Shown: in pieces, positions 1 through 8,295 of the stretch
How the letters are laid out: every line of letters begins with the position of its first letter
Numbering within the stretch: position 1 is the stretch's first letter
DNA from: Salinispira pacifica
GTDB lineage: Bacteria > Spirochaetota > Spirochaetia > DSM-27196 > Salinispiraceae
DNA length: 64,000 nt
Direction: 5' to 3'
Assembly: GCF_000507245.1 (NCBI RefSeq)
Contig: NC_023035.1
Coordinates: 2,709,570 to 2,773,569, forward strand
Made by a program: the position numbers and the translations under genes
The notes under the pieces: generated by a model
Database searches by the model: none
Seen by the model: only the letters and a program-made list of their open reading frames with translations
What the model was told of the DNA's origin: nothing

Positions 1-2454
1 CAGCACGTAGCGGCCCGTTTCGGTCTGCACCAGCTCAGAGGATCGGGGATTGTGAAACTCAATAATGTCGGTGAGTGGAAGAGAAAACAGAGAGTCCTGA
101 ACGGTGAACACAATGCCGTCGATAATGGCCAGAGTGAGGGGGATTTTTAAAATGAACTCTGTCCCTTCTCCTTCCACCGAGCTGATACTCACCTTCCCTC
201 TGAGTTTCTCGATATTTTTTTTCACCACATCCATTCCCACGCCTCTGCCGGAAATTTCCGACAGCTGAGCGGCAGTGGAGAACCCGGGCTCGAATATGAG
301 ATTGAACACCTCTTCATCGCCGAGATCATCGCCCTGATCGGCAATAATCCCCTTCTCCAGGCCTTTGTCCAGGATTTTCCGGCGATTCAATCCCTTACCG
401 TCATCGATAATTGAGATCCAGATCTCATTGCCTTCATAGCGGGCCGATAGAGTAAGGTTTCCTGCTCCATTCTTTCCACTGCTGCGGCGATCGGCGGCGG
501 TTTCAATGCCATGGTCAATTGCATTGCGGATAATATGAACCAGGGGATCGGATATTTCATCGATCACATTTCTGTCCATCTCCGTATCTTCACCGCTGAT
601 ATGCAGATGGATATCTTTGGAAAATTTCCGGCTGAGGTCCCTCACCAGTCTGCGCATTTTATTGAAAAGCCCATCCAGGGGAATCATCCTGATGGACATG
701 GTTAATTCCTGTATTTCCCGGGTGATTTTATTCAGGGATCCCGCAGCCCGGTTGAAATTTTCCAGGTTAAGCCCTTCCAGATCTTCGTTATGCAGAACCA
801 TGGACTCGGCGGTGATCAGTTCACCCACCAGGTTGAACAATCTGTCAAGTCTGCCGGTGTCCACCCGGATATCCTGCCGGGCATGTTTCTTTCCCTTTGC
901 AAGCTGCTTTTCAGCGGGAACCTGTTTTCCCTGACGCTCCAGGGCTGCGGCTATGTCCGACTCTTTCACAAGCCCCTTCTGAACAAGTATCTCCCCAACT
1001 TTCATATCCTGCTGCTGAAGGGCTTCATCCACCTGCTCCTGCTCCACCAGCTTCATATCGATCAGGATTTGACCCAGTTCGATATTCTCCTGCTGAAATC
1101 GGCTATCTCCGGGGGAGGCCCCGGTTGCTGCAGACGTCGGCTCCCGTTCTCCGGGGCTTCCGTCAGAGCGCTCAGCTGATGTTCCAGGGCCGGCCGAACC
1201 GTAGGCAGTCGGGATTTCAGCAGCAGCAGCAGTTGATTCCCGGGGAAGAACCAGACCGCTGCGGATGGCATCCACGGTTTTCAGAACAATAGAGATGTCG
1301 TCCTGCTCCAGAGTCTTCCCGGAACCCCGGAAGGTGTCCAGGAAGCTTTCCAGATCCATGCAGAGGGTTTCCGCATCGGCATACTGGAAGAATCCGGCAT
1401 TGCCCTTCACCGTATGGATGGCCCGGAACGCCTCATCGATGGATTCCGAGGCATCCTCTCCAGGCTCCAGATTCAGCAGACCGTTTTCCACCCGATCAAG
1501 AAGATCGCTGCTCTCGGAGATAAACCCTCCAAGCATCTGTTCGTCAAAAAGCTCCCCATATCCTTCGGGAATGACCGGCGGCGACGGTGTGAAAATATGA
1601 AACGGAGCATCCGCCGGTGCAGTACCGCTCGTTTTCCCTCCGGATGTACTTCCGGCCGTATGACCGGCATCTTCCGGATCACCCGGGGCCCGGGCCCTCC
1701 GGGACTCAAGCCTTGCGATAATACCGTCCACAGGCAATGTGCTGCCGGGTATGGTTTTCGCAGGCTTTCCGTTTTGTGCATCATACCATTCCTGGATTTC
1801 ATCCAACTGAGCAGCAAGAAGATCGGTTCCCTCAAGGAGAAGATCCGCCAGATCCGCATCCATGGATATCTGGCCCAGGCGTAAATCCTCCAGAAGATAT
1901 TCCATGCTGTGGGAAAGGCTCTGAATCCGCGGAAGATCCAGAAAGGAGGAAACCCCTTTGATGGTGTGCATTGCCCGGAAGATCTCCTCAACAATGGCAC
2001 GGTCTCCGCTGTTTTCAAAGCTGAGAATTCGCTCTTCTATATCATCCAGATGATTTCTGCCCTCAGCCAGAAAAGACGCGAGTACGTCCATATCAACAGA
2101 CGATTCTCCGGCGTCTTCGCCGTCTTTGGTTTCTTCGGTTTCTTCGGAAATTCCGGGCTCATCATCGGAAGCCCGGGAAGGAGGGGACGCCCCTTCTTCG
2201 GGGGATGTGGCGGGTTCACGGTACGCAGCGCTTTCAGATCCCTCCAGCTGGCGGATGATCCGGTCTTTCAGTTCACGGGGATCATTCGCTCTGCCGGTGG
2301 CAAGGAGAATGATCTGATCCCTGAGCATACTTATCTCATTGCTCCCGGGACTGTCCGGGTCGAGACTGTTCACGACATCTACAATCTCCGCTCCCGCAAG
2401 AAGATCACCGGGTTCAAAATCTTTTATGTGTGCAAGCAGCTCGTTCGGACTCAT
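1..2454 (-). CDS. cheA: Chemotaxis histidine kinase CheA, C-terminus beyond window
   Basis: Cytoplasmic kinase that phosphorylates CheY in response to receptors. The frame is open from the ATG at 2454 (preceded by GGAGAG) to base 1, 818 residues, and continues outside. Two HPt domains are visible, with phospho-acceptor His in AMHTIKG (about residue 163) and in AIHTVKG (about 347). At about 456-505 lie two tandem repeats (ELGQILIDMKLVEQEQVDEAL and KVGEILVQKGLVKESDIAAAL), separated by five residues, that resemble MshEN-type modules. The dimerisation and ATPase regions follow, with an N-box HIIRNAIDHGIE and G-box motifs GKGL and GRGVGMDVV. Last gene seen of a minus-strand operon, 99 bp after cheY. 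The second HPt and the inserted module are unusual; identity as CheA is secure. Confidence 0.95.
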   Translation of the reverse strand, partial: MSPNELLAHIKDFEPGDLLAGAEIVDVVNSLDPDSPGSNEISMLRDQIILLATGRANDPRELKDRIIRQLEGSESAAYREPATSPEEGASPPSRASDDEPGISEETEETKDGEDAGESSVDMDVLASFLAEGRNHLDDIEERILSFENSGDRAIVEEIFRAMHTIKGVSSFLDLPRIQSLSHSMEYLLEDLRLGQISMDADLADLLLEGTDLLAAQLDEIQEWYDAQNGKPAKTIPGSTLPVDGIIARLESRRARAPGDPEDAGHTAGSTSGGKTSGTAPADAPFHIFTPSPPVIPEGYGELFDEQMLGGFISESSDLLDRVENGLLNLEPGEDASESIDEAFRAIHTVKGNAGFFQYADAETLCMDLESFLDTFRGSGKTLEQDDISIVLKTVDAIRSGLVLPRESTAAAAEIPTAYGSAGPGTSAERSDGSPGEREPTSAATGASPGDSRFQQENIELGQILIDMKLVEQEQVDEALQQQDMKVGEILVQKGLVKESDIAAALERQGKQVPAEKQLAKGKKHARQDIRVDTGRLDRLFNLVGELITAESMVLHNEDLEGLNLENFNRAAGSLNKITREIQELTMSIRMIPLDGLFNKMRRLVRDLSRKFSKDIHLHISGEDTEMDRNVIDEISDPLVHIIRNAIDHGIETAADRRSSGKNGAGNLTLSARYEGNEIWISIIDDGKGLNRRKILDKGLEKGIIADQGDDLGDEEVFNLIFEPGFSTAAQLSEISGRGVGMDVVKKNIEKLRGKVSISSVEGEGTEFILKIPLTLAIIDGIVFTVQDSLFSLPLTDIIEFHNPRSSELVQTETGRYVL

Positions 2455-2553
2455 GTTTTCCAACTCTCTCCAGCTTCAACAATATATTTCCGCAGTATTC
2501 CGCTCACCGTCACTGCCGGTTATTCCGGCCCGGGCGCGGTGAACCTCCGACAA

Positions 2554-2919
2554 TCAGGATGACGTGAACATATTAATAATCTTCAGCAGCGATTGCTCTT
2601 CAAAGGGTTTCACCATCCAACCATTCACCCCCAGTTCTTTCCCGGCCTGTTTTTTGTCAGCTCCCGCCTCGGTGGTGAGAAAAATGACAGGTTTGGAGGA
2701 GAAACGGTCGTCTTTCTTGATCTCCCGGACGAAGGAAAACCCGTCCATATTGGGCATATTCACATCCACAATAAAAAGGTCTGCATCGGGATCTTCATTG
2801 AGCTTGTTCAGGGCATCCTGTCCGTCCTGGGCATCTCTCACCAGAAACCCGTTCTTCTCAAGAGATTTTTTCACCAGCATCCTGATGGTGGCCGAATCAT
2901 CAACACATACAACTGTCAT
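2554..2919 (-). CDS. cheY: Single-domain response regulator CheY
   Basis: Receiver protein of 121 residues that, when phosphorylated by CheA, acts on the flagellar switch. The acidic pair Asp7-Asp8, the phospho-acceptor Asp52 (VDVNMPNMDG), the Thr in FLTTEAG and Lys104 (VKPF) are all present, so it should be active. It covers one full receiver domain with no output domain. It sits between the chemoreceptor gene (31 bp gap) and cheA (99 bp gap) on the same strand. CheY is the simplest reading given its neighbours. Confidence 0.93.
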   Translation of the reverse strand: MTVVCVDDSATIRMLVKKSLEKNGFLVRDAQDGQDALNKLNEDPDADLFIVDVNMPNMDGFSFVREIKKDDRFSSKPVIFLTTEAGADKKQAGKELGVNGWMVKPFEEQSLLKIINMFTSS

Positions 2920-2950
2920 AGTAGCTACTCCTGTTTTTTATGAATTCCTG

Positions 2951-4345
2951 TCAGAACAGCGTTACATCGCCGCTGAGCTCAGGATCTTTACCGCTTGCTT
3001 CATCTTCCTTGAATTCAAGCCCCAGCACCGAGTATTCTTCTTTCACAGTGAGAAGGGATGCAATCATCGAGTGAAAGTTCCGAACCCTCTCCTCATGCTG
3101 CAGATCACCCTCGTCAGCCTCATTTTTCCGGATCTTGGATGTACTCAGTTCAAGCTCATCCCTGAATAACTCCACGATGGACACAATATGGCTGAGAATC
3201 TGGGAACCCGCATCCTGATATTGCAGATCCCGGATAATGGAATCCAGGGACGAGGTGACCGTGTCCGATAAGCCCTGGATCAGCCCCACACCCTCCTGAA
3301 CACCCTGGTTCTGACTGTTCAGAATTTGAATCATTTTGTGGAGCTCCTGCTGGTTGTTCTCCATTCGTTCGATTGAACTCTGAATTACCTCGTTCTGACG
3401 GTCCAGCCGGGCGCCGGATTCCTTCACCGAGTTGATCATCACCGTATTCAGCTTCCCTACGAATTCCTGGCTGGTTCCCGCAAGCTTCTGAATTTCCGAG
3501 GCGATCACCGCAAAGCCCCTTCCCGCTTCTCCGGCCCGGGCGGCTTCTATGGCGGTGTTAATGGCCAGAATATTGGTCTGCTCGGCAATCTCATTCATTT
3601 CACTGGCGAAGCCGTTTACAGTCTTCCGGGTTTCTTGCATATCCCGGACAATTTCCTGGAGGTTCTTCTGTATGAGATGGAATTCGCTGCTCAGCTGATC
3701 GTTCAGGGCCAGTTCCTCGGTTAATCCCTGAATATTTTTTTCAAGGCTTTGGTCGCCGCTGTTGATGTTCATAAGAAGTTCGCTGATATTTCTGCTCACA
3801 TCGTGGCTTTGATCGGCTATGGTAAATACCTGCTCAATGGCCGAGGCGGTTGAACCCTCCGAAGAATTATCCATGAGTCCTGCAAGACTTCTGGTTGAAC
3901 CCGAAGTAATCTCCAGCAGACGGGAGAGAACGGTGAATTCCTCCAGGGCCTTCCGCCATGCCTCCCCGGACTGCTCCCCCGGAGAATCTTCCGGGCCCGG
4001 GGTATCTTTTATGACAGACAGAGCGGCAGATGTGTCAGACAGAGCGGCAGATGACGCTGAACCGTTCACTCCGGTATTGTCAGAAGGGTCCCATCGCCGG
4101 GAATGCCCGGGACCGTACTCCGGCGGCAGCTCATGAGCATCCCCGTGAGCCTTCATATCCATATGACCTTCCGGAGAACTGTGTGCCCTCTCTCCCGCCT
4201 GATGTCTACGGCGGTATTCTCTTAGGGCAAGAAATATCAGAATAGCGCTTGCTGCAGAAGGAATGAGCTGAAAGAAGGTTCCTCCGAAGAACAGAAGGAG
4301 CAGATTCGAGAGAAGCAAAACTGAGCCGAGTGCGATTATCACCAT
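2951..4345 (-). CDS. Methyl-accepting chemotaxis protein with CheZ-like motif
   Basis: Chemoreceptor of 464 residues. The N-terminus has two closely spaced hydrophobic helices (about 2-20 and 25-42) with no room for a periplasmic sensor domain, then a variable polar stretch rich in His, Ser and Pro (about 45-125) and a cytoplasmic coiled-coil signalling domain. The hairpin tip is canonical ([18 protein letters not shown]). Near the C-terminus, [11 protein letters not shown] places Asp378 and Gln382 in the D-x-x-x-Q spacing of the CheZ phosphatase active site (QDLTGQ). Encoded between the ParA-type gene and cheY in the che operon. The receptor assignment is firm; the phosphatase idea is inference. 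Confidence 0.9.
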
Positions 4346-4455
4346 TCAATTATTCCTGTAAACATATGTACCAATATAATCTCTGTTTTCACGTGTATTT
4401 AAAGTATCAGGGATGGAACATGAAATTTCAAACCGAATGTCTATTCAGATTAGGT

Positions 4456-5436
4456 TCAAGGTCCGGCTGCTATCTGTTCAAGTTCATCTTTCAGACCGTC
4501 CAGATCTTCATCCGCATCATACAGGCCTGGCTGGGCGAGATCATTGCCTTTAATGATTCTTCCTGCAATGTGACCCAGGCTCACCGAGGCGGGGCATTCA
4601 GGGTCGAATGCGCTTAAGGGTTTTTTTGATAGAATGGATTTATAACTATCCTCATACCGGGGAACATACCCGATGTACTCCAGGCTGATCCCCACATTTT
4701 TCCGGGTAACCTGACGCAGACGGGCTCCGAGATCAATATCATCACCTGATCGCCCCATATTGATAATCACCCTGTACCCCAGTCCTTCCATGAGTTCCCG
4801 TGCATGGTTTTCCGATTCAGTGGATATGCTGCCCAGCTCCCTGAGCAAACCGTTGAAGCTCAGCTGCGATCCTTCAATTCGGGAACTGAGATACTCATGA
4901 ACCCGTTGCCGCTCGGGGCTTTTCCGGGGGAATGCCCGGAGTATCAGCCGGTAGCAGGCCGCTTTCACAAAACCGTAGGCGTTGAGAATGGCGGTGGGTT
5001 CCGCACTGGTGACCACAATCCCCCGGGGAGACGACAAAAAAAAGTCCACGGTATTATAGGAAGCGCCGGCGCCCAGATCCAGAATGACATAATCGGCAAC
5101 CAGTCTGCCCAAATCCCTGATAATTCCCACCTTCCGGTAATAGGGAAGATTGGCAGCGCCGGGTATCATCTGATCTCCGGGAATAAAATAGAGCCGGGAA
5201 TACCGGGTGTCCACAATCAGATCTTCCAGATTGGATACACTGCCATTGATGTAGTTTCCTATTCCCGGGTTATTGTTGGGAACACCCACACAGCTGTGAA
5301 GATTGGCCCCGCCCAGGTCAAGATCAACCAGAACAACGGTGTGGCCCCTGCTGGCAATGAGATGTCCCAGGGAAGCGGAGATCAGCGTTTTACCAACTCC
5401 GCCCTTGCCGCTTGCGATGGGAATTATCCGGGTCAT
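4456..5436 (-). CDS. ParA/MinD-family ATPase of the chemotaxis operon
   Basis: P-loop ATPase of 326 residues. The deviant Walker A KGGVGKT lies near the N-terminus and VVLVDLDLGGANLH follows. This is the MinD/FlhG/ParA family, whose members position large complexes using ATP-dependent dimerisation on membrane or nucleoid. The C-terminal tail is acidic (DADEDLDGLKDELEQ); no obvious amphipathic membrane-targeting helix was seen. Its start overlaps the J-domain gene by four bases (ATGA), indicating translational coupling. Chemotaxis-linked ParA proteins (ParC in Vibrio, PpfA in Rhodobacter) place receptor arrays; the location here suggests the same role. FlhG is the alternative, but no flagellar genes are adjacent. 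Confidence 0.85.
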   Translation of the reverse strand: MTRIIPIASGKGGVGKTLISASLGHLIASRGHTVVLVDLDLGGANLHSCVGVPNNNPGIGNYINGSVSNLEDLIVDTRYSRLYFIPGDQMIPGAANLPYYRKVGIIRDLGRLVADYVILDLGAGASYNTVDFFLSSPRGIVVTSAEPTAILNAYGFVKAACYRLILRAFPRKSPERQRVHEYLSSRIEGSQLSFNGLLRELGSISTESENHARELMEGLGYRVIINMGRSGDDIDLGARLRQVTRKNVGISLEYIGYVPRYEDSYKSILSKKPLSAFDPECPASVSLGHIAGRIIKGNDLAQPGLYDADEDLDGLKDELEQIAAGP

Positions 5437-5945
5437 ATCCTGCCACCGCCCTTGCTGTATTTCCGGTTATGCCGATATTGCCTCAGGAGAAGGTCGTTCA
5501 GTTCCCGGGGAGTCATGAGCCCCTCCTTCAGAAAATATCTGCCGATGGGACCTTTAGATGTACGCCGCCAGCAGAGGGCTTCCACCAGCTGTTTCCACTG
5601 GATCCGGCCGCTGTAGAGAAGAAACTGGCCTAAAGGCAGGTGCACCCCCGGAATATCTCCGGGAGGTGGTGCAGGCGGTGAACCTGCTTCTTCAAGGCGG
5701 GTATCTGTACCATTATCCAGATAATCCAGAAGGCGCTCATACGAGTTACGAAGAATGATAAAAGATTCACTGCTCCCGACGGAGGAATCGGGATGCCGAT
5801 CCTTCACCCGTCTGCGATAGGCCGCTTTCAGCCTGGAGGAATTGAGAGTAGTCAAAAACGAACTGTCCACCTTCACGCTGCTGCCGAAAACCTCTCTTAC
5901 GTCTCTGAGCAGCTCAAGCGTCGATATTTTCGTACTGCTCGGCAT
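5433..5945 (-). CDS. J-domain protein with MshEN-like C-terminal module
   Basis: Small protein of 170 residues from ATG 5945 (GAGG nine bases upstream; a TTG one codon earlier is also possible). The N-terminal half resembles a J domain, with the HPD motif at about 51-53 (KDRHPDSS) and helix III after it, so it could recruit an Hsp70. A Pro-rich linker follows (about 90-100). The C-terminal part has two repeats (PLGQFLLYSGRIQWKQLVEAL and PIGRYFLKEGLMTPRELNDLL) like those in the CheA of this operon. It overlaps the end of cheW by 32 bp and the ParA-type gene by 4 bp. Function is not established. Confidence 0.75.
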   Translation of the reverse strand: MPSSTKISTLELLRDVREVFGSSVKVDSSFLTTLNSSRLKAAYRRRVKDRHPDSSVGSSESFIILRNSYERLLDYLDNGTDTRLEEAGSPPAPPPGDIPGVHLPLGQFLLYSGRIQWKQLVEALCWRRTSKGPIGRYFLKEGLMTPRELNDLLLRQYRHNRKYSKGGGRI

Positions 5946-6453
5946 CAAGAAGTTCCTCGTTTCCTACTACTTTTTCCACATCAAGAAGAATTTTCACCTG
6001 ATCCTGAACTTTTCCCAGTCCCTGAATGTAACGTTCCCGAACGCTCCCCGACTTGAAAGAAGGGGGCGGATCAATGTCCTTGGGGAGGATGTCCTGCACT
6101 TCATTCACGGTATCCACGATAAACCCGATGGATCCCTGATCCAGCCCCACAATAATAATGCAGGTCCTGTCATCATACTCTCTCTCAGGCATGTTGAACC
6201 GGATCCGTAAATCCATTACCGGAATAATTCTTCCCCGGAGGTTTATGATTCCCCGGATGAAATCCGGCAGATCGGGAACTTTGGTGATTTTCTGCAGTTC
6301 GATGATATCCGTCACGGTCATTATATTGAGACCGTAGGCTTCCTCACCCAGTTGAAACAGAAGATATTTATTCTGTTGGGTAGAATCATCGTCGTCATCC
6401 ACCAGAAACATTTCATCATCATTTTCACGTTTGGTCTGTTTGATATCCGACAT
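5914..6453 (-). CDS. cheW: Chemotaxis coupling protein CheW
   Basis: Scaffold protein of 179 residues that links receptors to CheA. The CheW fold is evident from KYLLFQLGEEAYGLNI, the segment IRGIINLRGRIIPVMDLR, and GFIVDTVNEVQDI. An acidic N-terminal extension of about 25 residues (FLVDDDDDSTQQ) precedes the domain. The start at 6453 follows GAGGAG at good spacing. First gene of the che operon, after a 126 bp gap from the upstream chemoreceptor gene. Its 3' end overlaps the J-domain gene. Confidence 0.93.
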   Translation of the reverse strand: MSDIKQTKRENDDEMFLVDDDDDSTQQNKYLLFQLGEEAYGLNIMTVTDIIELQKITKVPDLPDFIRGIINLRGRIIPVMDLRIRFNMPEREYDDRTCIIIVGLDQGSIGFIVDTVNEVQDILPKDIDPPPSFKSGSVRERYIQGLGKVQDQVKILLDVEKVVGNEELLDAEQYENIDA

Positions 6454-6510
6454 GACACTCTCCTCAAATTGCCGGAACCCGGGTGATTCGGAATGATTTC
6501 ACCACGGCAT

Positions 6511-6527
6511 ACCGGCGGGGATCCTGT
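6511..6527. repeat. 17-bp intergenic sequence shared with 56961-56977
   Basis: ACCGGCGGGGATCCTGT occurs here, upstream of cheW, and again at 56961-56977, both intergenic. At the second site it is half of a hairpin. Two copies could arise by chance in 64 kb, so significance is uncertain. Confidence 0.35.
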
Positions 6528-6579
6528 TGTATAGTATTACTCATGAAACTGCATAATGCAAAATCGCCGGGAAAGGACC

Positions 6580-8295
6580 TTATTCATCTCCGTCATTATC
6601 CAGCTCCTCCAGCTCCCATTCTCTCGGCTTCATTGCAGAGTTCAGCAGGGATTGGAGATAGGTGATGTGTCCCGGGGGATTTTTCGCATCCTGCAGCTCC
6701 TGCTTGATTTTCCGGTGGGCGTCAAACAGGTAGCGGCGGATATCTGCAATGGTTCCCTGGTTAAGTGTCCCCGATTCTCTAAGCTTCGTAATCTGCTCCT
6801 CCACTGATTCGGTCTGTTGGATTACTTCTGCAATATCCTCATCGATTTTCCCGCTCAGCCCGGTGATTTCCCGGGTTTTTTCCACCTCCGAGGAAATTGC
6901 CCTTTCCATTTCCTCCAGAGATGAATCCACCAGCCTGGAACGTTCCAGGATCAGGGAAAAATCCTCCTCCATATCAGCTGCGGAAGAACTCACGCCGGTA
7001 AGGGTTGCCACCCCTTCTTCCAGGGTTCGGCGCACCTGGAGAATGGTTTGAACAATTTCCGAAAGAGTGGTTTGGGCCTTCGTGTTGTTTTCTATATTTT
7101 TCTGAATGGTTTGCATGTTTTCATTCACCGTCTCACGAATTCTCACGGTATTCTGCCGGGCCTCCTGGGCCAGCTGACGGATCTCCCCTGCCAGAACCGC
7201 AAACCCTGCCCCGGCCTCGCCGGCTCCGGCAGCCTCAATTGCAGAGTTGATTGCCAGAAGATGGGTCCGGTCTGCAATGTCATCAATGATGGATATCATA
7301 TCAAACATTTTACCTGAGCTTTCTTCAAAGCGCTGATTTGATTCCTGCACTTCCCTGAACACAAGCTCGCCTTCCGCACCTTTTTCTTCAAGCAGAGCCA
7401 GCTCACGCCGTTTCCCTTCGAAATCCCCGGTAACGGAACTGATCTCGGAGTTCAGCCTGCTGATGATATCAGCTGAGTTGCGGATATTACCGTTCTGCTC
7501 AACAATCGTTTCATTCAGTGCATCCCTCTTTTTCTCCAGCTGCTCCTGAATTTCTCCGCTCTCCACGGTGTAGAGATTCAGCATGCTCAGCAGATCTATC
7601 ATCCCTTCCAGCTTGCTGTAGGTATTCTTAGTAACCCGGAAAACATCTGCCGTTTCGTCTTCGATGGCTCGCCCGAGAAGAGCATGGCTTTTCAGTTTTG
7701 CATGAATATGAATAATATCCCGGTTTGCAAGACTGGCCAAAATGGCCGTTTTCCGGTACTTCACCATGTGGCGTCGGAAAAAATGGTAATGAAGGAAAAA
7801 AATAAGGGAATACAGCAGCATGCCTGCCCCACTGCCGACATAGAGCAGAGGTTCAGTCATCAGCTCTGAAGAGGTAACGTATGTTGCTGCCAAGGCTGCG
7901 CAGGAAAAAAGCGTAAAAAATACACTGTATCTCCCGGGGTAATCGGCAAAATATACCAGAGGAATCACCAGCATATTCAGAAGCAGTAGGGAAATGAGTC
8001 CTTCAATGCCGCCGGCCCCTGCCTGGACGAAAAACCAGGATATAAGCAGTCCTGCGGTTCCCAGTACGAAACTGATTCTGTGACGGCGGCGAACCGATAC
8101 AGATTGGCGGCGAATAATACCGACAGTCAGGAGATCCCCGATGATCAATGGGAGCAAAATTCCCGCCGGTACAACTGCTGCCCGGAAAAGAAGCAGCACC
8201 CCGGAGGCCGCCTGAACAACGATTATCAGCCCCCAGTAAAGGGTTGAGAATATATTGCGTATTTTGAGATATTTTCCCTTTGGAACTTCCCGCAT
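6580..8295 (-). CDS. Multi-span methyl-accepting chemotaxis protein
   Basis: Chemoreceptor of 571 residues. Residues about 13-190 form roughly six hydrophobic segments with short loops, so the sensing unit is membrane-embedded rather than periplasmic. Cytoplasmic coiled coils follow. The hairpin tip reads [20 protein letters not shown], in which the two conserved arginines of the usual EAARAGExGRGFAV are glycines. The gene starts 38 bp after the sensor-kinase gene on the same strand, so the two are probably co-transcribed. The altered tip suggests unusual trimer or CheA/CheW contacts. Confidence 0.88.

Follow-up and report, generated by a model that had tools for sequence, protein, structure and literature searches.

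A J-domain protein with an MshEN-type module in a chemotaxis operon of Salinispira pacifica, and the repeat family to which it belongs

A minus-strand run of chemotaxis genes in Salinispira pacifica (positions 1-8295 of the window, i.e. of the whole 64,000-nucleotide stretch of contig NC_023035.1 that was analysed) holds a gene for a J-domain protein (Table 1), and the question is what a putative co-chaperone might be doing there and why its C-terminal half carries the same type of module as the CheA encoded in the same operon. Both neighbours of the J gene overlap with it, the ATPase gene by 4 bases and the CheW gene, whose 3' end covers the start of the J gene, by 35. A J domain with an HPD motif implies DnaK as the partner. 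The reading preferred here, which stands at about an even chance, is that the protein is a DnaK co-chaperone that is tuned by c-di-GMP, now or ancestrally, through an MshEN-type module, that its client belongs to the chemotaxis machinery, and that CheA senses the same messenger.

The MinD/ParA-type ATPase is situated within the che operon as well, and ATPases of this type position chemotaxis arrays in other bacteria. A partnership between the ATPase and the J protein was considered and rejected, the ATPase having matched no gene (E 1e-4) in the other loci of the J-protein family that were examined.

Table 1. Features of the che operon and of the two module-bearing proteins (window coordinates; residues refer to the respective protein)
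Feature	Position	Residues	Strand	Basis or remark
CheA	1..2463		-	truncated at the left edge of the window
MshEN-type module in CheA	931..1080	462-511 (2-residue spacer)	-	NF053729; directly before H-kinase_dim
CheY-type response regulator	2554..2919		-	PF00072
MCP signalling domain protein	2951..4345		-	PF00015
MinD/ParA-type ATPase	4456..5436		-	PF01656, PF13614
J-domain protein, 171 aa	5433..5948		-	ORF, TTG start; PF00226 (DnaJ) E 0.0022; AF2 model
MshEN-type motif II (repeat R4 of the J family)	5478..5549	134-157	-	NF053729, family alignment
MshEN-type motif I (repeat R1 of the J family)	5565..5636	105-128	-	NF053729, residue map
J domain	5700..5930	~7-83 (HPD: H52-P53-D54)	-	model helices; aligned to J domains of Tim14 and Sis1
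CheW	5914..6453		-	PF01584
Second protein, sequence-related to the MCP-domain protein of 2951-4345	6580-8295		-	

The C-terminal half of the J-domain protein

The Pfam DnaJ profile matched the protein with 18.5 bits, under its cut-off of 27.8, and the HPD motif between J-domain helices II and III is present. Among ten scanned relatives, the same profile was over its cut-off in five (L052, L060, L095, L096 and L098) and below it in the other five, three of which scored 26.7-27.5 bits and two, from the window's GTDB family, 18.2 and 20.2 bits.

The two matching repeats that the first-pass annotation had noticed in the C-terminal half are present as quoted, and they follow the canonical MshEN layout of two 24-residue motifs with a 29-residue period and a 5-residue spacer. 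The spacer, which had been described as longer, is indeed longer than that of CheA (5 versus 2 residues), but five residues is the canonical length. The NCBIfam profile NF053729 ('cyclic di-GMP-binding domain-containing protein, MshE-related'; curated cut-off 38 bits) aligned with residues 105-157 along its full length of 53 positions (E 1.4e-7), at 31.2 bits and hence below its cut-off. In a whole-genome scan the protein reached 33.6 bits, and it and CheA were the only clear places, a third following at E 2; the claim that both proteins carry the same module type holds. Of seven other family members, four scored above the cut-off (L052, L092, L093 and L098; 44.3-57.0 bits) and three below it (L079 with 35.9, L119 with 28.9 and the two-repeat L095 with 15.7 bits). 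The repeat match in the window protein is more than chance. Because Pfam MshEN (PF05157) had no match anywhere in the genome, the evidence for an MshEN-type module is that of NF053729 together with the family alignment and the predicted fold.

In the AlphaFold2 model of the protein (alignment of 38 sequences, mean pLDDT 88.4), the J-domain helices span residues 10-21, 29-34, 37-51 and 60-78, and four C-terminal helices span residues 106-112, 118-130, 135-141 and 147-165. Residues 103-160 superpose on residues 7-64 of c-di-GMP-bound MshE (5htl_B) with a Z of 8.9 and an rmsd of 1.5 A over 58 residues; the best seven structural matches are all c-di-GMP-bound MshE or PilF domains (PilF GSPII-B among them), and other folds first appear at Z 6.7. 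The numbering offset from MshE to the window protein is a constant 96, in the model and in the profile match alike. Middling Z-scores come easily for helical bundles and Foldseek gave E-values without significance for the predicted model, so that sequence and structure are needed jointly to assign the fold. Taken in this way, the C-terminal half is predicted to be a complete MshEN-type four-helix bundle made of the two 24-residue motifs, which would pair with each other.

A four-repeat family and its two-repeat form

An alignment of 60 distinct sequences defines a family with a common plan: a J domain, a variable linker, four MshEN-type repeats (R1-R4) and, in most members, an H-N tail. The HPD motif is found in all 60, and the 58-residue middle block (R2-R3) in 58, being absent only from the window protein, which retains R1 and R4, and from the protein of genome G373. 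The relatives come from other Spirochaetota and from named genomes that are mostly titled Deltaproteobacteria or Desulfobacterota groups, with a few titled Scalindua, Acidobacteria, Myxococcales, Nitrospirae and Luminiphilus. With the window protein alone as query no relative was found among the named genomes; with an alignment of relatives as query 43 loci were, from which L090 and L091 were dropped (J-domain match only). As the search patterns for these genomes derive from R3 and the first part of R4, this set would under-represent two-repeat forms. In a profile search of 392 Spirochaetota genomes, 389 matched at E 0.001 since ordinary J domains match too; the positives are the 20 genomes with a family sequence at their best places (including G044, whose contig-cut sequence lies outside the 60), and with at most six candidates scored per genome some 'negative' genomes may hold a member. 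The window's order has the family in 9 of 46 genomes (11 matched at E 1e-8, G396 and G419 being uncounted as J domain only).

The two other members in the window's GTDB family (G252 and G359) carry four repeats, as does a member in the same order (G397), whose J gene is divergent from the CheW of a matching che operon, and this suggests that the two-repeat form of the window arose by loss of repeats. The two-repeat forms of the window and G373 are sisters in the tree, which is unrooted and gives this grouping a support of 58/7 only. No description of the family was found in searches of one open literature library, where a mention in supplementary tables (e.g. those of PMC5013675) is possible. 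The family is widespread, and together with its two-repeat form in this organism it is a find worth keeping. We know of no experiment on any of its members.

Tandem arrangements of MshEN-type repeats also occur in proteins at L038 (genome G075) and L043 (G133), where several tandem copies are followed by what look like MORN repeats; G075 has 12 MshEN-type matches in its genome.

How the four repeats pair is partly indicated by a model. In the AlphaFold2 model of the four-repeat L052 (mean pLDDT 91.2), each of the seven MshEN-type chains among the listed matches falls on residues 153-210, i.e. on R2 and R3 (5htl_A: Z 10.8, rmsd 1.2 over 57). From this alignment and from the two-repeat forms it may be deduced that R1 and R4 probably pair around an inserted bundle, in a nested R1-[R2-R3]-R4 arrangement, which is offered as a lead. 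If so, the window form would be the remainder without the inner bundle, with R1 and R4 making up one bundle. Covariation between the repeats (effective number 45) gave no clear signal, although R2-R3 is its top pair. Against nesting, the spacing of R1-R2 and of R3-R4 is the canonical 29 residues and that of R2-R3 is 28, and it is R1 and R3 that retain the Gln at position 24; this spacing and Gln pattern looks like the duplication of a two-motif unit.

Whether the window copy could still bind c-di-GMP depends on its contact residues. Nine of the twelve contact positions of MshE are kept or conservatively changed (L10 as L106, G11 as G107, L25 as L121, L29 as L125, L39 as I135, G40 as G136, L54 as L150, L58 as L154 and Q61 as Q157), and the remaining three are replaced (R9 by P105, Q32 by R128 and R38 by P134), Q32 being retained in 58 of 60 family members. 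Binding by this copy is doubtful, because three of the four polar contact residues are lost. The G373 two-repeat form, with Arg-Leu-Gly and both Gln, is the better candidate despite its low NF053729 score. It could be that the window module is now only a protein-protein docking bundle, without nucleotide binding, and that the J protein works constitutively as an adaptor between DnaK and a client in chemotaxis. This has a substantial chance, though one short of even. Besides the three lost polar contacts, it agrees with what the missing R2-R3 contained, namely a repeat with the common K-F-G-E start and a Gln kept in 57 of 58 members, and with precedent, as the available parts of two papers describe MshEN-type folds without binding: XpsE, which lost it (PMC5013675), and PilF GSPII-A, which deviates at both Gln, at the second Arg (R38) and at further positions (PMC12002112). 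Against it, the window protein still has both Gly, the Leu clusters and Q157, and the lost positions are partly forgiving in PilF according to the available text of PMC11731258: the R9 position tolerates other residues (K167L even tightened binding to 2 nM), and with one Gln changed the Kd is still near 0.5-1 uM (Q190E bound 158-fold more weakly, at 950 nM).

The module that is now, or ancestrally was, a c-di-GMP sensor in the preferred reading would not want for its messenger. With 25 GGDEF matches (of which two are probably one domain) and 7 PilZ matches in the genome, c-di-GMP is likely to be made in this organism. The common ligand that had been suggested for the two module-bearing proteins thus has a concrete candidate, but it is not assured, as the window J protein is without several of the contact residues.

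Gene neighbourhoods and the module in CheA

In 9 of 21 spirochaete loci, cheA, cheB, cheR or cheW lies within 5 kb of the J gene (window, L077, L095, L098, L100, L101, L102, L103 and L119), and these nine are spread over several families. The 21 loci are the window, L077, L092-L109 and L119, some of them cut by contig ends and two (L077 and L099) being copies of one genome; che genes were called from phmmer matches (E 1e-4) to proteins taken from the window and from two relatives, which may have missed distant ones. An MCP gene only is found near the J gene in L104 and L106. The 34 non-spirochaete loci, many on short contigs, mostly have no che neighbours; the cases found are cheB and cheR in L081, an MCP gene in L079, and in L072 a kinase that matches weakly (E 2e-5) and is probably no CheA.

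The location in the che operon could be incidental, the J protein being a general co-chaperone that landed there, which we consider unlikely. It is what one would read from G252 and G359, whose J loci are not che-linked although they belong to the window's GTDB family, and from the 12 of 21 spirochaete loci (some short) without cheA, B, R or W within 5 kb. The nine linked loci from several families argue the other way, as do the overlaps of the window's J gene with both neighbours and the position of J after CheW: in the window, L095 and L077, CheW is the che gene that precedes J on the same strand, with the two genes overlapping, 57 bases apart or in a chain of overlapping genes. The che operon of G397 has CheA, CheY, the MCP-domain protein and CheW in the window's order, with an extra MCP gene in the place of the ATPase and the J gene.

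Among the immediate neighbours of J there is a slight excess of PilZ genes. When 100 immediate neighbours from 54 loci were compared with 100 genes 5-6 positions away, PilZ was counted 3 versus at most 2 times, response regulators 6 versus 3 times and CheW 4 versus 5 times. The PilZ genes directly adjoin J in 3 of 54 loci (L080, L081 and L109, over the Pfam cut-off); PilZ-like genes below the cut-off adjoin it in L092 (7605-8378) and lie two genes away in L093 (11151-11909). The last two loci hold the two other members from the window's GTDB family, have similar surroundings, and some of their neighbours look, by eye, like molybdenum hydroxylase genes.

The CheA of the window matches NF053729 over residues 463-511 with 42.1 bits, above the cut-off of 38. 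A complete CheA lies near a J gene in six loci (window, L095, L098, L100, L102 and L119), the matching operon of G397 among them, and each of the six proteins matches the module. Only the window's is above the curated cut-off, and a seventh, on the same contig as J in G170, matches with 55.1 bits (it is cut in the locus stretch). The spacer between the two motifs varies among CheA modules, some totalling ~49 residues (2-residue spacer, as in the window), others 53 residues, and those of L098, L100 and L102 being longer. Some genomes have more than one module-bearing CheA gene.

A profile of the module plus the dimerisation domain (E 1e-12) found such a CheA in 54 of 74 genomes, i.e. in 19 of the 20 with the J protein and in 35 of the 54 taken as without it (in one of the 35, G378, it matched from motif II onward only, the whole module being seen in a separate scan). 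The co-occurrence that the first-pass annotation had proposed to check is thus seen from the side of the J protein (19 of 20 genomes, and six of six che-linked loci with a complete CheA), but the 35 genomes without J also have the module, from which it follows that the CheA module does not depend on the J protein. Fisher's test for 19/20 versus 35/54 gives p 0.009, or 0.05 when the five of the 19 genomes that supplied the CheA profile are excluded, in both cases with kinship ignored; as the 54 J-negative Spirochaetota genomes were hand-picked and the genomes are related, this is not taken as evidence of dependence, and an association of the J protein with module-bearing CheA across genomes is not established. 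Nor is the module rare, as had been thought: it is widespread and known, and the fusion of CheA with MshEN was already named in 2016 (Wang et al., in the available part of PMC5013675). That CheA and J make a homotypic contact through their modules is very improbable, since the shared module type, the neighbouring genes and the lack of a third clear copy in the genome are set against module-bearing CheA in 35 of 54 genomes taken as without J, a J family that mostly lies away from che genes, and two J motifs that are predicted to pair mutually.

In the CheA module both Gln and both Gly are conserved and R38 is replaced by Lys (R9 by Glu), so that, judged from these residues, c-di-GMP is likely bound there, beside the dimerisation domain. 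Among CheA proteins with MshEN, that of the window is characterised by both kept Gln, by the Lys and Glu at these positions and by its 2-residue spacer.

A proposed role and its relation to known systems

In the preferred reading the MshEN-type module would be, or would once have been, a c-di-GMP sensor controlling when the J domain brings DnaK to its client. The client here would be a part of the chemotaxis machinery, be it CheA, CheW or the ParA-type ATPase, and CheA would read the messenger with the module beside its dimerisation domain. Stimulation of DnaK by the J protein would be part of this.

The module of the J protein has the two 24-residue motifs, the 5-residue spacer, the predicted four-helix bundle and the Gly/Leu contacts in common with the N-terminal domain of Vibrio cholerae MshE (5htl; NF053729), but it sits on a J domain and not on an ATPase, has both Arg and one Gln replaced, and is without the MshEN_C subdomain. 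CheA proteins with an MshEN module, an association named in the available part of PMC5013675, are alike in operon and module type. As far as the available text of PMC10313047 goes, the PilZ-DnaK chaperones CsdK1 and CsdK2 of Myxococcus xanthus likewise fuse a c-di-GMP-type domain to a component of the Hsp70 system; unlike here, that domain is PilZ and not MshEN, and it is on DnaK itself and not on a J-domain co-chaperone. AtcJ of Shewanella oneidensis resembles the window protein in being a dedicated J-domain protein of small size, with a C-terminal extension that binds a partner; this extension is given as 21 residues in the available part of PMC6715715, in contrast to the module of two 24-residue motifs in the window protein.

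A wider proposal, which is tentative and on the whole rather doubtful, is that the whole family, widespread as it is, consists of Hsp70 co-chaperones under c-di-GMP control, exerted by way of the MshEN-type repeats (probably nested), and that some spirochaetes have recruited it to the che operon, where one messenger would act on both CheA and chaperone delivery.

Transcription, motors, pili and polysaccharide synthesis are the main targets of the known c-di-GMP receptors. Through a c-di-GMP-type module on an Hsp70 co-chaperone, the messenger would be linked to protein folding or to the remodelling of complexes, and the J family offers a clear test set, with four-repeat proteins on the one hand and two-repeat forms without the inner pair on the other. 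In addition, the module shared with CheA makes direct c-di-GMP control of a spirochaete chemotaxis kinase testable.
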